Source: Pontimicrobium aquaticum
GTDB lineage: Bacteria > Bacteroidota > Bacteroidia > Flavobacteriales > Flavobacteriaceae
Length of the DNA: 64,000 nucleotides
Assembly: GCF_005047595.1 (NCBI RefSeq)
Contig: NZ_SUPL01000001.1
Coordinates: 186,001-250,000 of the forward strand
Direction of reading: 5' to 3'
The position numbers and the translations under genes are program-made. The notes under the pieces are model-generated. The model worked only from the letters and a program-made list of their open reading frames with translations, ran no database searches and was not told the origin of the DNA. Of the stretch, positions 28,363 to 38,158 are shown piece by piece (positions within the stretch are counted from its first letter, which is position 1; every line of letters begins with the position of its first letter).

Positions 28363-28535
28363 AACTAGTAGCGCTTTTATTGCTCTTAAAAGTAAGAAAA
28401 CTATATAGTTTTTTGTGAATGTATTATGTAGTTTTAATAAAAAGATTCACTTAGATATAAATTTATAAATAGTTTAGCATTTTAAATTTTATATTACCTT
28501 ATTATCTCAATATATTGATATTAAACCCAATATTT

Positions 28536-29345
28536 ATGATGTTGCAAATTCATCAACTAATTATCTTTTTTCTTTTTTTTACCTCTTGCGATACAGGAGA
28601 GCTTACTGTAATTGCTGATTTACCTAACGATTTAAAAGAAATTTCTGCAACTGAAACTTTACCAAACTCCAATTTAATTTGGGTTATTGAAGATGCAGGA
28701 AACAAAAACAATATTTATGGTTTAAATACTAAAGGAAAGATTATAAAAGATATTGATGTCAATAACGCTAGTAATATAGATTGGGAAGATTTAACCTCAG
28801 ATAGTTTTGGCAATTTATACATTGGTGATTTTGGAAATAACAGTAAAAACAGAGATGATTTTACTATTTATAAAATTGCAAATACAAATACTGCTGAAAA
28901 TAAAATTACTGCAGAGAGGATCAATTTTATACTTCCAAAGGACATGAAATCTAAAGATTTTGAAGCCTTTTTTCTTTTAAATAATCACTTTTATATTTTC
29001 AGTAAAGAAAATAAATCTAGTGTGCTTATAAAAGTTCCTAATAAAATAGGAAAGCATACTGCAGAATTAGTGATTGATTTTAATTTAGATGGCAAACACC
29101 ACAAAATAACTTCGGCTGATGTTAGTGATGATGGTAAAACCATTATACTTTTAAACCATGACAAACTATGGAAAATTACCGATTTTAAAGATGATGCTTT
29201 TTTTAAAGGCACTATTGAAGAATTACCCTTTGAGCACGACTCACAAAAAGAAGGTGTTTGTTTTTTAAGTAAGACGGAAGTTTACATTACAGATGAAAAA
29301 AACAAAGGTGAAGGTGGTAACTTATATCTTTTTAATATGAATTAA
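28536..29345 (+). CDS. Predicted beta-propeller-like lipoprotein, unknown function
   Basis: The ATG at 28536 (or the next one at 28539) is chosen because it gives a lipoprotein signal with FFTSCD; the earlier ATG at 28515 adds a poor extension. The product is about 269 residues. Internal repeats of the type WVIEDAGN, LYIGDFGNN and VYITDEKN are spaced like propeller blades. DLTSDSFGNLYIGDFG suggests a surface ligand-binding or calcium-binding propeller. I do not recognise a specific family. It is convergent with the next large gene, overlapping it by 4 bp. Confidence 0.65.
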   Translation: MMLQIHQLIIFFLFFTSCDTGELTVIADLPNDLKEISATETLPNSNLIWVIEDAGNKNNIYGLNTKGKIIKDIDVNNASNIDWEDLTSDSFGNLYIGDFGNNSKNRDDFTIYKIANTNTAENKITAERINFILPKDMKSKDFEAFFLLNNHFYIFSKENKSSVLIKVPNKIGKHTAELVIDFNLDGKHHKITSADVSDDGKTIILLNHDKLWKITDFKDDAFFKGTIEELPFEHDSQKEGVCFLSKTEVYITDEKNKGEGGNLYLFNMN

Positions 29346-32300
29346 AAACTTAACCCAAACCCAAAAGAAAATCGAAATCCTTCAGCACTATTAAAGAAAT
29401 TAAAAGTACCTGATAAACTTTCGGCTGCTGTTATCCACAAACCACCACCATAATCGTTGTGCCATTTGTTTGAGTTTTTACCTCTTAACCAAACCCTACC
29501 AACATCAGCTCCTCCAAAAACACCTATTTGTAATGGTAATATATTAGTTTTAAATGATGGAAAACTATACCTAAGATCTGCACTTCCAACAAACGAGCTT
29601 TTACCTGTAAAACGCTCAGTTCTATAACCTCTTAACCCATTATTACCTCCAATATTAGCAGCTTGATAAAACACAAGTTCATCACCAAATCTTACTTGGG
29701 TTCTTACATCTGTTTTTAGTACCAGTTTTTTATTTTTTGATAACGCATTATAAAACCCTAGATCAGAATTAATAAAGCCGTAGGTGTTTTTAGTATCCTT
29801 AAATTCGGTTTTACCACCAATATTCAACATGAAGTTCATCCCTCTCGAAGGGTTTATAGTATTATCAAAACTTTTGTAGTTATATTCTATTTCTACACCT
29901 CCAAATAAGCGTCTTTTGTAAAATTCGGTATTAATTTCAGGAGCAAATTCTGATATAAATCGATCTTTGGTTTCTTCAATTTCTATACCTTCAAAAATCG
30001 TTCTAATTCCAAAGTCGCTACCAAAACCACCTTTTTTCACAACGCCTATTTTAGTGGCAATAATGCCTGTTTTAACCCTATTAAAGTCTAAATCATCTTC
30101 ATTGTTTTCTGTTTCATTACCATAGCCAAAAAAGTTATTAGTAAAATTCTCTGAAGTAAATGTTCCAGATACATTTAAATTCCAATCTTGAAATATATTT
30201 GCAAACTCTCCATTATAATTGAGAGCAAAACCTTTAGTTGCAAAAAAGTAACCACCTTTAAAGCGATGTTGTTGTGAAAAAGGGTTTCGCTGAAAGCCCT
30301 TAACCGTTTTTACAAACGAGACACCTAATTGAAACCCATCATCTGGGTTATAACCCATATTTGGGGTGATGATTGATGCTTTTGTAATGTTTTTATTAAA
30401 ATCAAAAAGATTTAGAGTATAGATATCGGTAAATTTTATTTGCCCTCCCTTATTTTCTTGTATTGTGTTTTCTTTATATTTATGGTCATACACTTTAATA
30501 CGCCTGCCATTTTTTATAATATAAGTGTCATTTCCTTGACCTCCAATAAGTCTTGTATAGATTAAATTATTTGCTTTTCCTGTAACTTTAAAAACATCTT
30601 TATCATCTAAACCGTAAATCCAAATCTCTTTAGTAATATCCCTATGGAATGTTTTATCAACCAAAACCTCACCTTTTTCACCATCAATAATTCTTGAGAT
30701 TTTTATGTGAGTTTCTTTATTGCCTGTTCGGGTTACTTCAATATAATCGTCCTTATCTGTACCTTTAAGAATCACTAATTCGCTTAAATAATTGTAATAT
30801 CGTATTGCAATATCTTGCAGGTTAGCATGTCTTCCTTTAAATTTTTGCTTGATATCTTTTAATGTTTCATCCTGCACTGATTCTGGTACTTTTGAGAACG
30901 CTAAATCAATAACCTCATCTGTAATATTGTCTTGTAAAAATTTAGCTTGTTCTAACCACTTATTTTTATTTGCTTGTTGAATAAGAACTCGGTCTAATTT
31001 AATTCCTGCACTATTCATCCACTCAATATCTCTTAATTCTTCGTCATACACCTGAAGTTGCTTTGTAGGCCCCGAAATAATTTTCATAACCCCTAATAAT
31101 GCACCATCAAAATTTGAAAACACCTGATCCCTATCCCTTGGAATTGGTTTAAAGTAGGTATCGCCATTTTCCAAATCAAATTGTGCCCATTGCCATTGGT
31201 CTTGGTGCCTATCCCAATCGCCAATTAGCATATCAAAAAGGCGTGCTCTTACAAAAGCATCTTCATCTATTTTATACTTTTCGTCTTTACGGATTTTTTT
31301 TATAATATCATATGTGCTTTTAACATCATTAACATACCCAAAGTTTTTTTCTTTAGCATAATTTTTTTCCGGACGCTCCTCAATAGTATATAATTCTCCT
31401 CCAAATTCTTCATTATATATTCCTAAGGCTTCATGCTTAGGAATATAATATAGTTGTGGATTGGTATGATAGACTTTTGCTGCTTCTGACAAATCTGGCA
31501 CTACAGTAAACGCATAAGGATGTGCAGCTGTATAAAAATCTAGAACAAGATTTTCTACTGTTGTTTTCTCAAACTCATCTTGTATATATGTGTCTTTAAA
31601 AAGTACTGTTTGTAAATATTGTGTTGCGCTTTTACGAAGTGCTCTCATATTAAGTTCTTTTCCATCTTTGGCTCTTAATCGGAGTGAACGTGTTTGATGA
31701 CCCCCACCTTTCCTTACAACTTCTAACCCTCCATAAAGCGTGTCGAGAGTAGCTACCTTAGCTTTAATTTTTGTGCTATAAATATCACGATAATGGTTTC
31801 CCCAAAGCGATTTAAAGAACCCTGTTTTATCGGTTTCTTCTTTGGTGTAAATAGACACTTCTATTTCTTGAGGGAAGCTTTTTGGTAGCTTAAATTTAGA
31901 AACATCAAACTCTTTTCTTGGTTTAAACACTTCTTTTTGATAGAGTAGCTTAGCTTTTCCATTTTCCACTCCATGAAATTTCACCCAACTACTTCCATCC
32001 TTAAAAACGGTTAACTCAGCAAAGCCTTGTTTGCCATATGAGAACAATCCGTTTTTACCCAATGAGGCTACAGATTCTTTAGACCCTGAACCAGATACTA
32101 TTTGTTTTATAGATTTATTTTCTATGTACTGTAATGAATGCTCATGACCTGAAACAAAAACCACATTTTTGGCATTTAAAGTCATTGTTTCCAACCTATT
32201 CATTAACTTATTGTAACGTTCATTATAACGATCTTGTATTGAAACGCCTCCTTGGGTTCTTACTTGTGCTAAAAGTGATGCTATAATTGGAACAGGAATT

Positions 32301-33049
32301 TTCTTTTGCGTTGGAAAAATATGCTTTGAAGCATTATAATAACCTCCATGAATGCCATTGGTGTACATTGGATGGTGCATTGCAAAAATCACCGTTTTAT
32401 TTTGTGCCTTTTTTAATTCACCTTCAATTTCTTCAAATAATCGTTCTCTAGTTTTAATTTCACAATCGTCATTAATGGTTGGGTTATCGTTCCAGTTTTC
32501 TAGATACCACTGAGTATCTATAATAATTAATTGAATTGTTTCACCTATATCTACACTTTTTAAGGGGCAACCATCTTCTGGCAAAAAGGTATTTTTACCT
32601 AATGCTTCTTCTATATACTTTTCTTCGCGTTTTAAACCTTTAAGTTTGTTTGAATACCAATCATGATTCCCAGGGATAAAAATGGTAGTTCCTTTAAAAT
32701 TCTCAACAGCATTTATTTGTGCATTTAATGCGTTTTCGGCACTTGCTCTTCCTTTTTGATTTTTATCAGGTAACCCTGACGGATAAATGTTGTCTCCCAA
32801 AAAAATGGTATAGTCTCCCTTTGTTTCCTTATCTGAAATATACGATTGAAACGTTTTTAAACCATCCGAAAGATTGTTTTTTGGAGACAAACCAGCATCT
32901 CCAATAAGGTAAAATGTTTTATCTATTTCTTTATCTGGAAAATTGTTTTGAAACTTATCTGCATTTGCATATTGTACTTTATGAGTTGCACATGCATTGA
33001 ATAACAACGATAAAAAAAAGACAGCTATTATTTTAGCATTTAATTTCAT
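29342..33049 (-). CDS. Metallophosphoesterase - kinase-like domain - outer-membrane beta-barrel protein
   Basis: This is a 1235-residue lipoprotein-type protein (lipid Cys20 in FNACAT). Residues 45-360 are a calcineurin-type phosphoesterase with all metal motifs: GDAG (50-53), GDN (85-87), GNHD (127-130), HH (225-226) and GHEH (301-304). Residues about 440-690 hold a Gly-rich KGGGHQTRSLRL, a Lys/Arg-rich strand, LIGDWDRHQDQW (608-619) and PIPRDRDQVF (635-644), an order like that of CotH/HipA/FAM20 kinases. Residues about 895-1235 look like an Omp85-type barrel ending in Phe. The protein spans the outer membrane; the substrate is unknown. Confidence 0.78.
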   Translation of the reverse strand: MKLNAKIIAVFFLSLLFNACATHKVQYANADKFQNNFPDKEIDKTFYLIGDAGLSPKNNLSDGLKTFQSYISDKETKGDYTIFLGDNIYPSGLPDKNQKGRASAENALNAQINAVENFKGTTIFIPGNHDWYSNKLKGLKREEKYIEEALGKNTFLPEDGCPLKSVDIGETIQLIIIDTQWYLENWNDNPTINDDCEIKTRERLFEEIEGELKKAQNKTVIFAMHHPMYTNGIHGGYYNASKHIFPTQKKIPVPIIASLLAQVRTQGGVSIQDRYNERYNKLMNRLETMTLNAKNVVFVSGHEHSLQYIENKSIKQIVSGSGSKESVASLGKNGLFSYGKQGFAELTVFKDGSSWVKFHGVENGKAKLLYQKEVFKPRKEFDVSKFKLPKSFPQEIEVSIYTKEETDKTGFFKSLWGNHYRDIYSTKIKAKVATLDTLYGGLEVVRKGGGHQTRSLRLRAKDGKELNMRALRKSATQYLQTVLFKDTYIQDEFEKTTVENLVLDFYTAAHPYAFTVVPDLSEAAKVYHTNPQLYYIPKHEALGIYNEEFGGELYTIEERPEKNYAKEKNFGYVNDVKSTYDIIKKIRKDEKYKIDEDAFVRARLFDMLIGDWDRHQDQWQWAQFDLENGDTYFKPIPRDRDQVFSNFDGALLGVMKIISGPTKQLQVYDEELRDIEWMNSAGIKLDRVLIQQANKNKWLEQAKFLQDNITDEVIDLAFSKVPESVQDETLKDIKQKFKGRHANLQDIAIRYYNYLSELVILKGTDKDDYIEVTRTGNKETHIKISRIIDGEKGEVLVDKTFHRDITKEIWIYGLDDKDVFKVTGKANNLIYTRLIGGQGNDTYIIKNGRRIKVYDHKYKENTIQENKGGQIKFTDIYTLNLFDFNKNITKASIITPNMGYNPDDGFQLGVSFVKTVKGFQRNPFSQQHRFKGGYFFATKGFALNYNGEFANIFQDWNLNVSGTFTSENFTNNFFGYGNETENNEDDLDFNRVKTGIIATKIGVVKKGGFGSDFGIRTIFEGIEIEETKDRFISEFAPEINTEFYKRRLFGGVEIEYNYKSFDNTINPSRGMNFMLNIGGKTEFKDTKNTYGFINSDLGFYNALSKNKKLVLKTDVRTQVRFGDELVFYQAANIGGNNGLRGYRTERFTGKSSFVGSADLRYSFPSFKTNILPLQIGVFGGADVGRVWLRGKNSNKWHNDYGGGLWITAAESLSGTFNFFNSAEGFRFSFGFGLSF

Positions 33050-33067: not shown

Positions 33068-33337
33068 CTAAGGTTTAAATTTCATGTTACATGTTTCACA
33101 AAGATAAGTATCTGCTTTTAAAGTTATTTTGTCTAAACTACGAACAACCTCGTTTATAAAATGTGAATAAGCATCAGTATTTGGTGATACATTCTTAGAG
33201 CTAATTTTTTTATAGAACTCCCCATCCCATTCCTGACTTCCCCAACAATTAGGGCAAATACCTTCAGGTGCTTTACCTGTTTCTTTTTTTTCTAACTTTT
33301 TCCCAAAATAGCTTTTAACATTGTTTATTAAATTCAT
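33068..33337 (-). CDS. Small zinc-ribbon-like protein
   Basis: This is an 89-residue soluble protein with two Cys pairs, CPNCWG (near residue 28) and CETCNMKF (near 81), spaced like a split zinc ribbon. Lys-rich N-terminus. No known function. It lies between the barrel protein and msrA on the minus strand, with 18 nt and 42 nt gaps, so it may be co-transcribed with msrB and msrA. Confidence 0.72.
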   Translation of the reverse strand: MNLINNVKSYFGKKLEKKETGKAPEGICPNCWGSQEWDGEFYKKISSKNVSPNTDAYSHFINEVVRSLDKITLKADTYLCETCNMKFKP

Positions 33338-34538: not shown

Positions 34539-35732
34539 ATGGATAATATTCTTGTTGAAACTGAAAAATTTGTCACTCAGTTATTAAACAACCATCTTGA
34601 CAATAAATTTGTTTATCACAATTTAGCTCATACACAACGTGTTGTTGAAAAAGGAACTGAGCTTGCCGAACTTGCTGAACTAAACGACATTGAAAAAGAG
34701 CACCTTTTACTTTGTGCTTGGTTACACGATACAGGTTACACAAAAACCATTGAAGATCATGAAGATGAAAGCATTAAAATAGCTTCTAGTTTTTTAAAGA
34801 AACAAGGCTATAATAATGAAGGTATCGACATTGTAAATGGTTTGATTTTATCAACCAAAATAACTCACGAACCAACAAATAACCTAGAAAAATTGATTCG
34901 TGATGCAGATTGCTCTCATATTGGTAGCAAAAGCTACCTAAACACCTCGGAGTTGCTAAGAAAAGAATGGGAATTAACTTGTAACAAGACATTAACCGAA
35001 CATGAGTGGTTAAACGAGAATATTGATTTTTTAACTAACAGGCATCGTTTTTACAGTGATGAAGCTTCATCTATTTGGGATAAAGCAAAAGGGAGAAATT
35101 TATCACAATTACTAAAAATGCAAAAAAAATTAGTATTGGAGCGTTCTAAATTAAAGCAAAAGAAAGAAGAGCTAAAGTTAAAAAAGAACAGGGTTAAATT
35201 ACCTGAACGCGGTATTGAAACCATGTTTAGAGTCACTTTAAAAAACCATATGCATTTAAGTAATATTGCCGATACGAAAGCAAATATTTTGCTGTCTGTA
35301 AACGCCATAATTATTTCGTTAGTGCTTTCTAATTTAGTTTCTAAGCTAGACAATCCATCAAACAGTTATTTAATTTGGCCTACAGTAATTTTTGTCGCTT
35401 TTACGGTTGTTTCTATTGTACTATCTATTATTGCAACACGTCCTAATGTGACTAGTGGTAAGTTTACAAAAGATGATGTTGCAAATAAAAAAGTAAATCT
35501 TTTATTTTTTGGAAACTTTCACAAAATGAGCTTAAACGATTTTGAATGGGCTATGGGAGAGATGATGCAAGACAGAGATTATTTATATTCTTCAATGAAA
35601 AAGGATCTTTATTTTTTAGGAAAAGTTTTAGACAGAAAGTATAAAATATTACGCCTTACTTATACTGTTTTTATGATTGGCATCATAGTTTCTGTAATTA
35701 CCTTTGGAATTGCATTTAGTTCTATTGGGTAA
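34539..35732 (+). CDS. HD-domain phosphohydrolase fused to a Pycsar effector-like membrane domain
   Basis: This is a 397-residue protein. Residues 1-180 are an HD domain with His27/His31 (YHNLAHT), His63-Asp64 (AWLHDTGY), His74 and Asp122-Asp124 (IRDADCSH). A basic coiled coil follows (about 190-222). The C-terminal half has LSNIADTKANILLSVNAIII (240-259) and three membrane segments, as in PycTM effectors of cyclic-pyrimidine (Pycsar) defence. No cyclase gene is nearby. HD domains hydrolyse phosphate esters or cyclic nucleotides, so the protein could sense and degrade a nucleotide. Physiological role unknown. Confidence 0.82.
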   Translation: MDNILVETEKFVTQLLNNHLDNKFVYHNLAHTQRVVEKGTELAELAELNDIEKEHLLLCAWLHDTGYTKTIEDHEDESIKIASSFLKKQGYNNEGIDIVNGLILSTKITHEPTNNLEKLIRDADCSHIGSKSYLNTSELLRKEWELTCNKTLTEHEWLNENIDFLTNRHRFYSDEASSIWDKAKGRNLSQLLKMQKKLVLERSKLKQKKEELKLKKNRVKLPERGIETMFRVTLKNHMHLSNIADTKANILLSVNAIIISLVLSNLVSKLDNPSNSYLIWPTVIFVAFTVVSIVLSIIATRPNVTSGKFTKDDVANKKVNLLFFGNFHKMSLNDFEWAMGEMMQDRDYLYSSMKKDLYFLGKVLDRKYKILRLTYTVFMIGIIVSVITFGIAFSSIG

Positions 35733-35776: not shown

Positions 35777-38158
35777 TTATTTTTTAATTTCTTTCATTAA
35801 ATCATTATAGGTATAGAAGGCTTTGTCGTTGTCTTTTTTATGATATAGCACACTTACCCTTATGGCTTTTAAACCTGTAACACCTTGCAAATCTTGCAAT
35901 TCTAATATTTCTATATCACAATCAAGAATAGATTTTGATTGTAAAAAGTTAATGTATCTTAAGTATTCTGCTTCATCTTCTTTTTGTGAATACACAATAG
36001 CTATTTTACCAGATTGCGTAACACGTTCGTTTGTGCCTTTTATAAGTGCCTTATCAACGCGTTTTTTAACAACTTCATATCTTGCGTTATAGGTGCCATC
36101 TACATCAAAGCGCTTTTCATCCATTCTAAATCGTATAGATAAAGGCTGGTTAAATACTAAAATCATTGATGCAACATCTAGTGATAGTGGGTACTCACTT
36201 TGGCTATTGTAAAACTCTCTTTCCATTTCACACATTACCTGTAACTGCCATAATCGCAAATTATAAAGGTAAACAACATTAAAGCTATCTTCTTTTGTAA
36301 TGGATTCGCCAATATACATATTGTGCTCAACACCATCTGTTTTATAACGCTCGAAAAAGTGAGGATACATTTGTTGTGCATCTACTTGCTTTTGATCTAA
36401 AAGGTTAGACATTTTTTTATTAATTAAAGCAATAGTATCGTCATACTTTTTTCTGTAATAATAAACTACTCCTAGGTCTTTATTTATTTTACCAAAATAG
36501 TCTTCTATGTCTTTAGAATAAGCTTTATCTTTTTTCTGAAGAAACCTAAATAACGGCTCTATTTCTCTTTTAAAAAATCCAGATATTTGTTGCTCGCTAT
36601 CAACTTTAAAATCTACATTAATCTCTTTTGTGTAAGATTGTATTTGAAATTTTATTTGCTCATAAATTGGCATGTGTTCTTTCTCAGGAAGCTTTTTAAA
36701 TATTTTTTCAGCTAACGACAATTGCAGAATTAAATCTTTTTTTGTGGCATTGTTTCTAGAGTGTGATGATCCTTTTACATCCATTTGCCCAAACAAAGGA
36801 TATACTTTTTTAAAGCTTATATTTTTGAATGTTGCATTGGCTGCGAAACGTTGTTTATCTATTAAAAACTGCTTAGCAGCACTTTTAAATTTCCAAGACA
36901 CGCTTGGGTGAATAGAGGTACACTCTTGTTGTATTATTGCTTCAATTAAATTTTCTTCATCATTTTTAGAGCGCTCAACTGCCGACACAATAAATGGCAT
37001 TACATCTTCTAATTTATTAGCATTAATACTATTTAACGCTAGTGGTTCATTTGATGCTATTTCTAAAACACCCATTAACCCATCGTCATTTGCTATTGGA
37101 GCAAAAATAGCACTTTTAATACCCTGCTCATGAAGTGCATCTATATGTGGCGTTTTTCTCTTAGAAGCCTTAAACATCTTATCAACATCTGATACTGAAA
37201 AATATTTATTGTCTTGTAACAACCTTTTGTATGACCATTTACACAATGCATCTGAACATTTTAATTTTTCTGCTTTATTTAACAGAAAACTTTTTCCTCC
37301 TACATCATAAATACGCTCAAAAGTACTTTCTTCCTTATTATAAATTGAAAAGCCTATTTGAATATCATTAACTCCTAAAAGAGATCTAAAAATTTTGCTA
37401 AAATCTTCTACGATATTCTCATCACTACATTTTTCATCGCCAATAAGTGCTGACTTTACGTTTGAAATGGATTGATCATCAGTAACATCAAAAATATTTG
37501 AAATTACAAATCCCTTGAAAGTGTAGCTATTTGGCGGGAATTTTTCTTTCCACAAATCGATATTCTCAAAACTATCCAAAAGTATTTCATAATCTTCTTG
37601 GGTAATTTTGGGCGCACTCTTTTTAGGGGTTATTTCAATAAAATCTGCATTATACAGTATTTTATAATAACGCATAACGCCGTTAACATCTGGAATTTCG
37701 TAATAAAATGGACGCTTAAAATTTAAACTATAACCATAACAAAAAGCTAATATAATAGTACATGCCATAATGTAGGTATCATCTTTTGGCATGTTCTTAA
37801 TTTTTAATTCAAAGTCATCACCTGCAGTGCTAATAATGTTTTTAAATCGATCTGAAGAATTAAAAATTAAATTATGAAATGGTACAGATGCTGTCTTAAT
37901 CTCATTTTTTGTTAACACAGGACTAAAAGAATCTTGAAGAATTACACTAATTTCTTTTTTTCTTTTCTTTAATATACTAGTCTCACTAAATCCTTTTCTT
38001 AGCTCAGGGTACGTCTCAGCTATTTTTAGTATTCGTTTAGCTTTTTCTAAAATCAATTCGTCGTCACTCTCAGCTAAAACCTCATAATGCTTAAGCAGTT
38101 TATCAAAGCTTACTTTAAGCTCTAAGGGAGATTCAATATTTTCATTAATATCATGCAT
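35777..38158 (-). CDS. GAF-domain protein with long C-terminal region of unknown function
   Basis: This is a 793-residue soluble protein. Residues about 245-400 are a GAF domain (IYDVGGKSFLLN, then IKSAIFAPIANDDGLMGVLE). The C-terminal half is helical, with a conserved-looking piece FGQMDVKGSSHSRNNATKKD near residue 465. No histidine kinase, GGDEF or cyclase motif is visible, so its output is unknown. It is convergent with the HD-PycTM gene (44 nt apart) and has its own -7 element upstream. Confidence 0.75.
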   Translation of the reverse strand: MHDINENIESPLELKVSFDKLLKHYEVLAESDDELILEKAKRILKIAETYPELRKGFSETSILKKRKKEISVILQDSFSPVLTKNEIKTASVPFHNLIFNSSDRFKNIISTAGDDFELKIKNMPKDDTYIMACTIILAFCYGYSLNFKRPFYYEIPDVNGVMRYYKILYNADFIEITPKKSAPKITQEDYEILLDSFENIDLWKEKFPPNSYTFKGFVISNIFDVTDDQSISNVKSALIGDEKCSDENIVEDFSKIFRSLLGVNDIQIGFSIYNKEESTFERIYDVGGKSFLLNKAEKLKCSDALCKWSYKRLLQDNKYFSVSDVDKMFKASKRKTPHIDALHEQGIKSAIFAPIANDDGLMGVLEIASNEPLALNSINANKLEDVMPFIVSAVERSKNDEENLIEAIIQQECTSIHPSVSWKFKSAAKQFLIDKQRFAANATFKNISFKKVYPLFGQMDVKGSSHSRNNATKKDLILQLSLAEKIFKKLPEKEHMPIYEQIKFQIQSYTKEINVDFKVDSEQQISGFFKREIEPLFRFLQKKDKAYSKDIEDYFGKINKDLGVVYYYRKKYDDTIALINKKMSNLLDQKQVDAQQMYPHFFERYKTDGVEHNMYIGESITKEDSFNVVYLYNLRLWQLQVMCEMEREFYNSQSEYPLSLDVASMILVFNQPLSIRFRMDEKRFDVDGTYNARYEVVKKRVDKALIKGTNERVTQSGKIAIVYSQKEDEAEYLRYINFLQSKSILDCDIEILELQDLQGVTGLKAIRVSVLYHKKDNDKAFYTYNDLMKEIKK

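Follow-up and report, generated by a model that had tools for sequence, protein, structure and literature searches.

In the 64,000-nucleotide stretch of the Pontimicrobium aquaticum genome analyzed here (assembly GCF_005047595.1, contig NZ_SUPL01000001.1, positions 186,001 to 250,000; hereafter, the window), one gene encodes a chain that starts with a phosphoesterase domain and ends in an outer-membrane barrel. This raises two questions: what is the long segment between these domains, and what would a protein built in this way do at the outer membrane?

One chain with two recognizable ends

The gene is a single uninterrupted open reading frame on the minus strand (29342-33049, ATG start, 1235 aa). 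The first-pass annotation of this DNA had given exactly these coordinates, without a strand, and had read from the sequence a complete calcineurin-type phosphoesterase and an Omp85-like barrel; both are recognized by profile searches, the former as Pfam Metallophos (PF00149, E 5.4e-11, residues 46-240) and the latter by Pfam ShlB (E 7.1e-7, above the Pfam cut-off) and NCBIfam Omp85 (E 1.7e-17, yet under that model's own cut-off). Residues 370-930 received no label from Pfam, NCBIfam, or PDB sequence searches, and a phmmer search of the PDB returned only weak purple acid phosphatase matches, for the N-terminal part. An AlphaFold2 (AF2) run on residues 36-1235 (mean pLDDT 79.6, pTM 0.76) and the analyses below delimit the following features:

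29342-33049, minus strand: whole gene, 1235 aa; lipoprotein signal, predicted purple-acid-phosphatase domain, CotH-like kinase-fold domain (predicted), small beta domain, Omp85 barrel
32990-33049, minus strand: signal peptide with a lipobox ending in Cys20 (LLFNAC-AT); sequence read by eye, Cys conservation
31940-32932, minus strand: predicted purple-acid-phosphatase (TRAP)-like metallophosphoesterase domain, residues 40-370; PF00149, AF2 model, conserved ligand residues
30782-31765, minus strand: domain with a predicted kinase fold, residues 429-756, unlabeled by Pfam and NCBIfam; AF2, VIA-align, hhalign to CotH, hmmsearch of PDB sequences
31676-31711, minus strand: glycine-rich loop KGGGHQTRSLRL, residues 447-458, predicted turn joining two N-lobe strands; sequence, AF2
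31631-31645, minus strand: candidate nucleotide- or phosphate-binding residues R469 and K473, both on a predicted strand of the N-lobe; conservation, DSSP
31193-31222, minus strand: putative catalytic-loop motif GDWDRHQDQW, residues 610-619; aligned to CotH GNWDNY and CtkA GNFDRHNGNW
31118-31141, minus strand: putative metal-binding motif PRDRDQVF, residues 637-644, with D639 and D641 matching CotH P-Y-D-Y-D; profile alignments
30392-30781, minus strand: small beta-rich domain, residues 757-886, with the kinase fold on one side and the barrel on the other; AF2 secondary structure
29345-30385, minus strand: 16-stranded Omp85-type outer-membrane barrel, residues 889-1235; Pfam and NCBIfam, AF2, TamA match
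29624-29638, minus strand: Omp85 L6-type RGY motif GLRGY, residues 1138-1142, between barrel strands 11 and 12; model position, sequence

The AF2 model of the N-terminal domain aligns with pig purple acid phosphatase (1ute) at Z 28.3 over 269 residues, and D51, D86, Y89, N128, H226, H302, and H304, whose counterparts in that family serve as metal ligands, are each kept in 62 to 68 of 68 full-length representatives. Modeled with a purple acid phosphatase fold and carrying the expected ligand residues, tyrosine included, this domain is a predicted phosphatase. Purple acid phosphatases such as 1ute and 1kbp have this fold and these metal ligands, among them the tyrosine found in the purple enzymes; the domain differs from them in being part of a larger membrane-anchored chain, with about 20% identity and an activity that is predicted.

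At the other end of the chain, the barrel model matches TamA (4c00) with Z 24.3 over 291 residues, and the GLRGY motif linking strands 11 and 12 presumably corresponds to the L6 loop of Omp85 proteins. Pfam matched no POTRA domain, and the part preceding the barrel is filled by two other domains plus the small beta domain. The lipobox cysteine is aligned in 62/68 full-length representatives, and we infer lipidation at Cys20. In solved Omp85 proteins, the part preceding strand 1 is periplasmic; therefore, both soluble domains would be expected to lie in the periplasm. A lipidated N-terminus joined to an Omp85 barrel is also found within the same phylum in TamL, a TamA-like lipoprotein of Bacteroidota (PMC12045153). 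However, TamL is a relative of the POTRA-bearing TamA with a role in outer-membrane homeostasis (PMC12045153), whereas the barrel of the present chain follows two enzyme-like domains.

A barrel of this type, complete with an RGY motif, could mainly serve secretion or assembly in the manner of PlpD or TamA, carrying the enzyme domains to the surface or helping to insert proteins, and both surface passage and a periplasmic role were proposed for the PF00149-Omp85 group in a 2014 survey (PMC4104836). However, the lipid-anchored N-terminus (Cys in 62/68) speaks against passage of the chain through the barrel, POTRA domains gave no match, and the phosphate-metabolism neighbors described below would be left unexplained. 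We consider a role mainly in secretion or assembly improbable and prefer to see in the barrel an anchor for enzyme domains that are probably periplasmic.

The middle of the chain is predicted to have an atypical kinase fold

Residues 385-935 were modeled with AF2 from an alignment of 78 sequences (mean pLDDT 77.8, pTM 0.80). The model is weak at model residues 91-124, 178-190, and 262-281, and its N-lobe is partly of low confidence; since three stretches fall below pLDDT 50, the pocket is poorly resolved. Foldseek alone gave nothing below E 0.001 for this model, with weak kinase matches mixed with noise, and its candidates were scored with VIA-align as a second look. Ranked first was Bacillus cereus CotH (PDB 5jd9; Z 13.7, rmsd 3.7, 250 residues, 14% identity), followed by PI4K-II alpha (Z 13.4), CtkA (11.7), HipA (10.2), PI3K gamma (10.1), and the FAM20-type Golgi casein kinase FAM20C (10.0), and the kinase matches cover model residues 45-370, which are protein residues 429-754. 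The top matches of this predicted model are all atypical kinases of one clade, a pattern more telling than any one score, and it is very probable that residues 429-754 have an atypical kinase fold of the CotH/FAM20/HipA/PI3-4K clade. A CotH/HipA/FAM20-like kinase is what the first-pass annotation had suspected between the phosphoesterase and the barrel, and the structural comparison with CotH, HipA, and FAM20C that it had set as a test bears out that suspicion as to fold, these families heading the list of matches. A fusion of a phosphoesterase with an Omp85 barrel had by itself been reported before (PMC4104836).

Profile comparisons point the same way. Profile A3 was built from 38 diverse members, hand-picked from 49 with the exclusion of truncated sequences and of those with visibly altered motifs; therefore, its invariant columns were not used as evidence of conservation. 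Compared by hhalign with 30 CotH domains, it gave P 2.3e-5 over 296 columns under one setting and P 2.2e-4 (score 39.2) under another, the program's own probability being only 45-51%; the control scores reached at most 18.2 with 30 column-shuffled CotH profiles and 23.9 with unrelated or reversed profiles. In this alignment, GDWDRH falls over CotH GNWDNY and PIPRDRDQ over VIPYDYDN. An hmmsearch of PDB sequences with A3 had CtkA as its best match (E 0.017), placing GDWDRHxxxW over GNFDRHNGNW, and a shallower profile (A1) found no match in the PDB. The CotH match argues, at the level of sequence, for a kinase fold independently of structure. Only 13 of 30 CotH sequences fit a strict regular expression written for the CotH motifs, so the motif comparison rests on profile alignment.

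Profile comparison led to CotH through hhalign and to CtkA through hmmsearch but not to HipA: the whole protein has no Pfam match to HipA_C (PF07804), and hhalign gave P 0.38, which is no profile match. A single-sequence Pfam search of the middle domain returned nothing, or sub-threshold noise (p25-alpha, EnY2, P450). As for CotH (PF08757), the whole protein has no Pfam match to it and no member reaches the gathering score, the best of the 38 members having E 0.014; by these measures, the kinase-fold domain reads as a remote relative of PF08757, not as a member. It has in common with CotH, its best fold match, the order of the motifs, a G-x-W-D catalytic loop, and P-x-D-x-D, but identity in the structural alignment is 14% and family members stay under the CotH score. 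With FAM20C, HipA, and CtkA it shares the fold class, and with CtkA also a DRH-type catalytic loop aligned by sequence, but the structural scores are lower (10 to 11.7) and HipA is without a profile match.

PI4K-II shares the top place among the fold matches with CotH (Z 13.4 vs 13.7), which favors the idea that the fold is used for another chemistry or acceptor, such as AMPylation, glutamylation, or the phosphorylation of a lipid or glycan, in which case "protein kinase" would be a misnomer. Kinase-like folds, 72 families of which are listed in KINtaro, are known to AMPylate (PMC10870513) or glutamylate (SidJ, PMC6858067), and at a membrane the acceptor could plausibly be a lipid or glycan. 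Nothing specific speaks against this explanation, acceptors not being separable by fold and motifs, and it overlaps with the reading that we prefer, in which the domain transfers a group and the acceptor stays open; by itself we rate it as possible, if somewhat unlikely.

Candidate catalytic residues are kept in most relatives

The three motifs that had suggested a kinase in the first-pass annotation (KGGGHQTRSLRL, GDWDRHQDQW, and PRDRDQVF) do occur in the expected order, and D613 is the putative catalytic base. Conservation was counted without any selection of members. Weighted over 157 sequences, it is 0.95 for K473, 1.00 for D606, 0.97 for D611, 0.92 for D613, 0.95 for R614, 0.85 for D639, and 0.89 for D641. 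Among 94 representatives at 80% identity, the residue is kept in 87 at R469, 91 at K473, 94 at D606, 92 at D611, 88 at D613, 84 at D639, and 87 at D641, and R469, K473, D613, D639, and D641 are all present together in 81, with at least one missing in the other 13. Since the motifs are kept in homologues down to about 25-30% identity, they are not due to chance. Both R469 and K473 lie on DSSP strand 465-473 of the predicted model, and either may face the pocket as the contact for the ATP phosphates. W619 and W621 are highly conserved among relatives. In CotH itself, residues equivalent to PKA D166, N171, and D184 are retained, and the adenine is packed between Tyr142 and Trp245 (PMC12189002). 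Judged by its sequence, the kinase-fold domain has all the candidate catalytic residues, and our estimate leans slightly toward a catalytically active group transferase.

The family occurs in several forms. Of 296 genomes surveyed across the phylum, 148 gave matches at E 0.001, with partial ones (phosphoesterase or barrel only) counted; scanning genome contigs yielded 80 close relatives (L033-L112), full-length homologues among them. In a HMMER search of a plasmid collection, relatives were found only in Bacteroidota, within the scope of that collection. Besides the full-length form of about 1240 aa, there are proteins with the middle domain and barrel but without the phosphoesterase (about 860 aa), phosphoesterases alone (about 400 aa), and middle domains alone (429-502 aa). 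At one locus (L125:2449-6594), three adjacent genes encode, in order, a kinase-like protein of 579 aa, a phosphoesterase of 411 aa, and a barrel of 402 aa; therefore, the fusion joins parts that are also found side by side as separate genes. Tandem pairs of full-length genes are present in L106, L112, L107, and L057, the second copy having N at the D639 position in L106 and L112. Another tandem pair (L117:1952-7187) consists of one copy with degenerate kinase motifs and one intact copy. In genome G019, a Pfam CotH gene (C15:16534-17403) lies about 1.4 kb from a middle-plus-barrel gene.

The 13/94 representatives with altered motifs may be pseudokinases, which raises the possibility that the domain in general is a pseudokinase or binding module, a sensor of a nucleotide or phosphate compound through which the phosphatase, then the sole working enzyme, would be controlled. 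The degenerate and intact pair of L117 is reminiscent of FAM20A and FAM20C, in which the pseudokinase FAM20A pairs with FAM20C, and the periplasm is not known to contain ATP, which would also suit such a role. However, all five candidate residues are kept in 81/94 representatives and are not obviously needed for mere binding, and many family genes have no phosphoesterase domain to control. We therefore see a pseudokinase as unlikely and keep to the reading of an active kinase-fold domain. A seemingly intact, conserved kinase fold at the outer membrane, probably on the side of the periplasm, which is not known to contain ATP, raises the question of the donor.

A second PPK1 is a recurrent neighbor in relatives

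Three genes near the family gene in the window are members of a block conserved in relatives, or related to one:

28515-29345, plus strand: secreted protein resembling a beta-propeller, with kinship to the SdiA-regulated family of the conserved block; hhalign probability 96.4, P 1.3e-9, controls null
34539-35732, plus strand: HD domain plus PycTM membrane protein, member of the conserved block; Pfam
35777-38158, minus strand: 793-aa GAF-like protein, member of the conserved block; sub-threshold Pfam GAF match

The propeller gene is convergent with the kinase-phosphatase-barrel gene, their ends overlapping by 4 bases, and it neighbors the family gene in 51 of 80 close loci; it has no Pfam match, its kinship to the SdiA-regulated family being seen by profile comparison. 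An HD-PycTM gene is near the family gene in 60 of the 80 close loci. Eighteen bases upstream of the family gene, an 89-aa open reading frame (33068-33337) without a Pfam match carries two CxxC pairs, resembling a zinc ribbon.

When the neighbors of 40 distant family loci were grouped by single-linkage BLAST clusters, the HD-domain family recurred at 18 loci (PycTM by Pfam in 11 proteins) and an SdiA-regulated/phytase-like propeller at 12, often adjacent to the family gene; PPK1, SixA-like histidine phosphatases, Ppx/GppA, and a guanylate cyclase-TPR protein recurred as well. The fullest block consists of HD-PycTM, SixA, PPK1, the propeller, the family gene, and the GAF protein, with varying subsets elsewhere; the GAF-like protein belongs to it in L203-L206, L208, and L213. 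In the window, the GAF protein and HD-PycTM accompany the family gene, together with a propeller related to that of the block. Because the HD-PycTM family recurs beside family genes and PPK1, PycTM-type membrane domains, which are those of Pycsar effectors, may reach beyond anti-phage systems.

The position of PPK1 was then compared with expectation in 80 genomes that carry a family gene. Most of them lie outside the window's own family, and they were chosen regardless of where PPK1 lies; since the idea had come from distant loci whose genomes are also among these 80, the test lacks full independence. PPK1 is present in 75 of the 80. It lies within 5 kb of the family gene in 16 genomes, spanning nine families, against 0.5 expected, and within 20 kb in 35, against 1.5 expected (both for 4-Mb genomes). 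Most of the further 17 to 19 cases within 20 kb belong to a single family, in which PPK1 is about 11 kb distant; these cases may go back to one arrangement in an ancestor. Where a genome has two PPK1 genes, the linked copy is usually the lower-scoring one. On a tree of 39 PPK1 proteins, 13/17 linked copies fall in one 17-row group (support 87/94) apart from the main copies, and the linked label needs 5 changes, compared with 13 in shuffles; with 5 changes needed, a single strict clade of linked copies was rejected even though 13/17 share one group.

In the window's own genome, no PPK1 was found; it encodes three PPK2 and one Ppx/GppA. Dependence of the window gene on a PPK1 of its own genome was accordingly rejected. 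Two of the PPK2 genes are adjacent (C1:364368-365896, L220 and L221). In three other genomes of the window's family that were checked, PPK1 is not within 5 kb of the family gene. The PPK1 linkage is an association, not a mechanism, and it is the best lead to function; we put a functional link of the family to polyphosphate at slightly below an even chance. Searches of the literature brought up nothing useful on CotH with VTC, PPK with SixA in Bacteroidetes, SdiA-regulated proteins with PPK or Pycsar, or periplasmic kinases.

Proposed function and relation to known proteins

We propose an outer-membrane lipoprotein in which the Omp85 barrel and the N-terminal lipid would anchor two phosphate-handling domains on one chain, both facing the periplasm if Omp85 topology holds. 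The kinase-fold domain would most likely transfer phosphate, or else an adenylyl or polyphosphate group, onto a protein, glycan, or lipid of the envelope. The purple-acid-phosphatase domain would either (i) strip phosphate from the same substrate or (ii) hydrolyze the donor or product. The second PPK1, a conserved partner in relatives, suggests that polyphosphate could be the donor or the regulated quantity. The anchored writer and eraser as a whole, donor identity aside, seems to us an even bet. Its most specific version, polyphosphate-linked phosphorylation at the outer membrane by an anchored CotH-clade kinase that uses polyphosphate, not ATP, with the purple acid phosphatase reversing the reaction and a PPK1 paralogue of its own co-inherited in many relatives, is a long shot.

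The architecture has a precedent in the "Metallo" group, PF00149 joined to an Omp85 barrel, one of ten bacterial Omp85/TpsB subfamilies in the main text of Heinz and Lithgow 2014 (PMC4104836). That text calls PF00149 a metalloprotease domain, describes conservation at genus level only, and does not contain the word kinase (PMC4104836). Set against it, PF00149 is Metallophos, a phosphoesterase family in Pfam, matches here extend (partial ones counted) to half of the phylum genomes surveyed, and the middle of the chain has a predicted kinase fold. In open-licence papers, we found no description of a kinase fold in PF00149-Omp85 proteins. The fusion was already reported in 2014; the kinase-like domain and the PPK1 linkage are the new part.

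These findings would give a domain with a wide distribution in Bacteroidota its first structural label, based on predicted models, and they correct the view of the PF00149-Omp85 subfamily as carrying a metalloprotease. The PPK1 linkage suggests a testable answer to the question of which donor an outer-membrane protein with a kinase fold might use, and it hints at a phosphate chemistry of the envelope.
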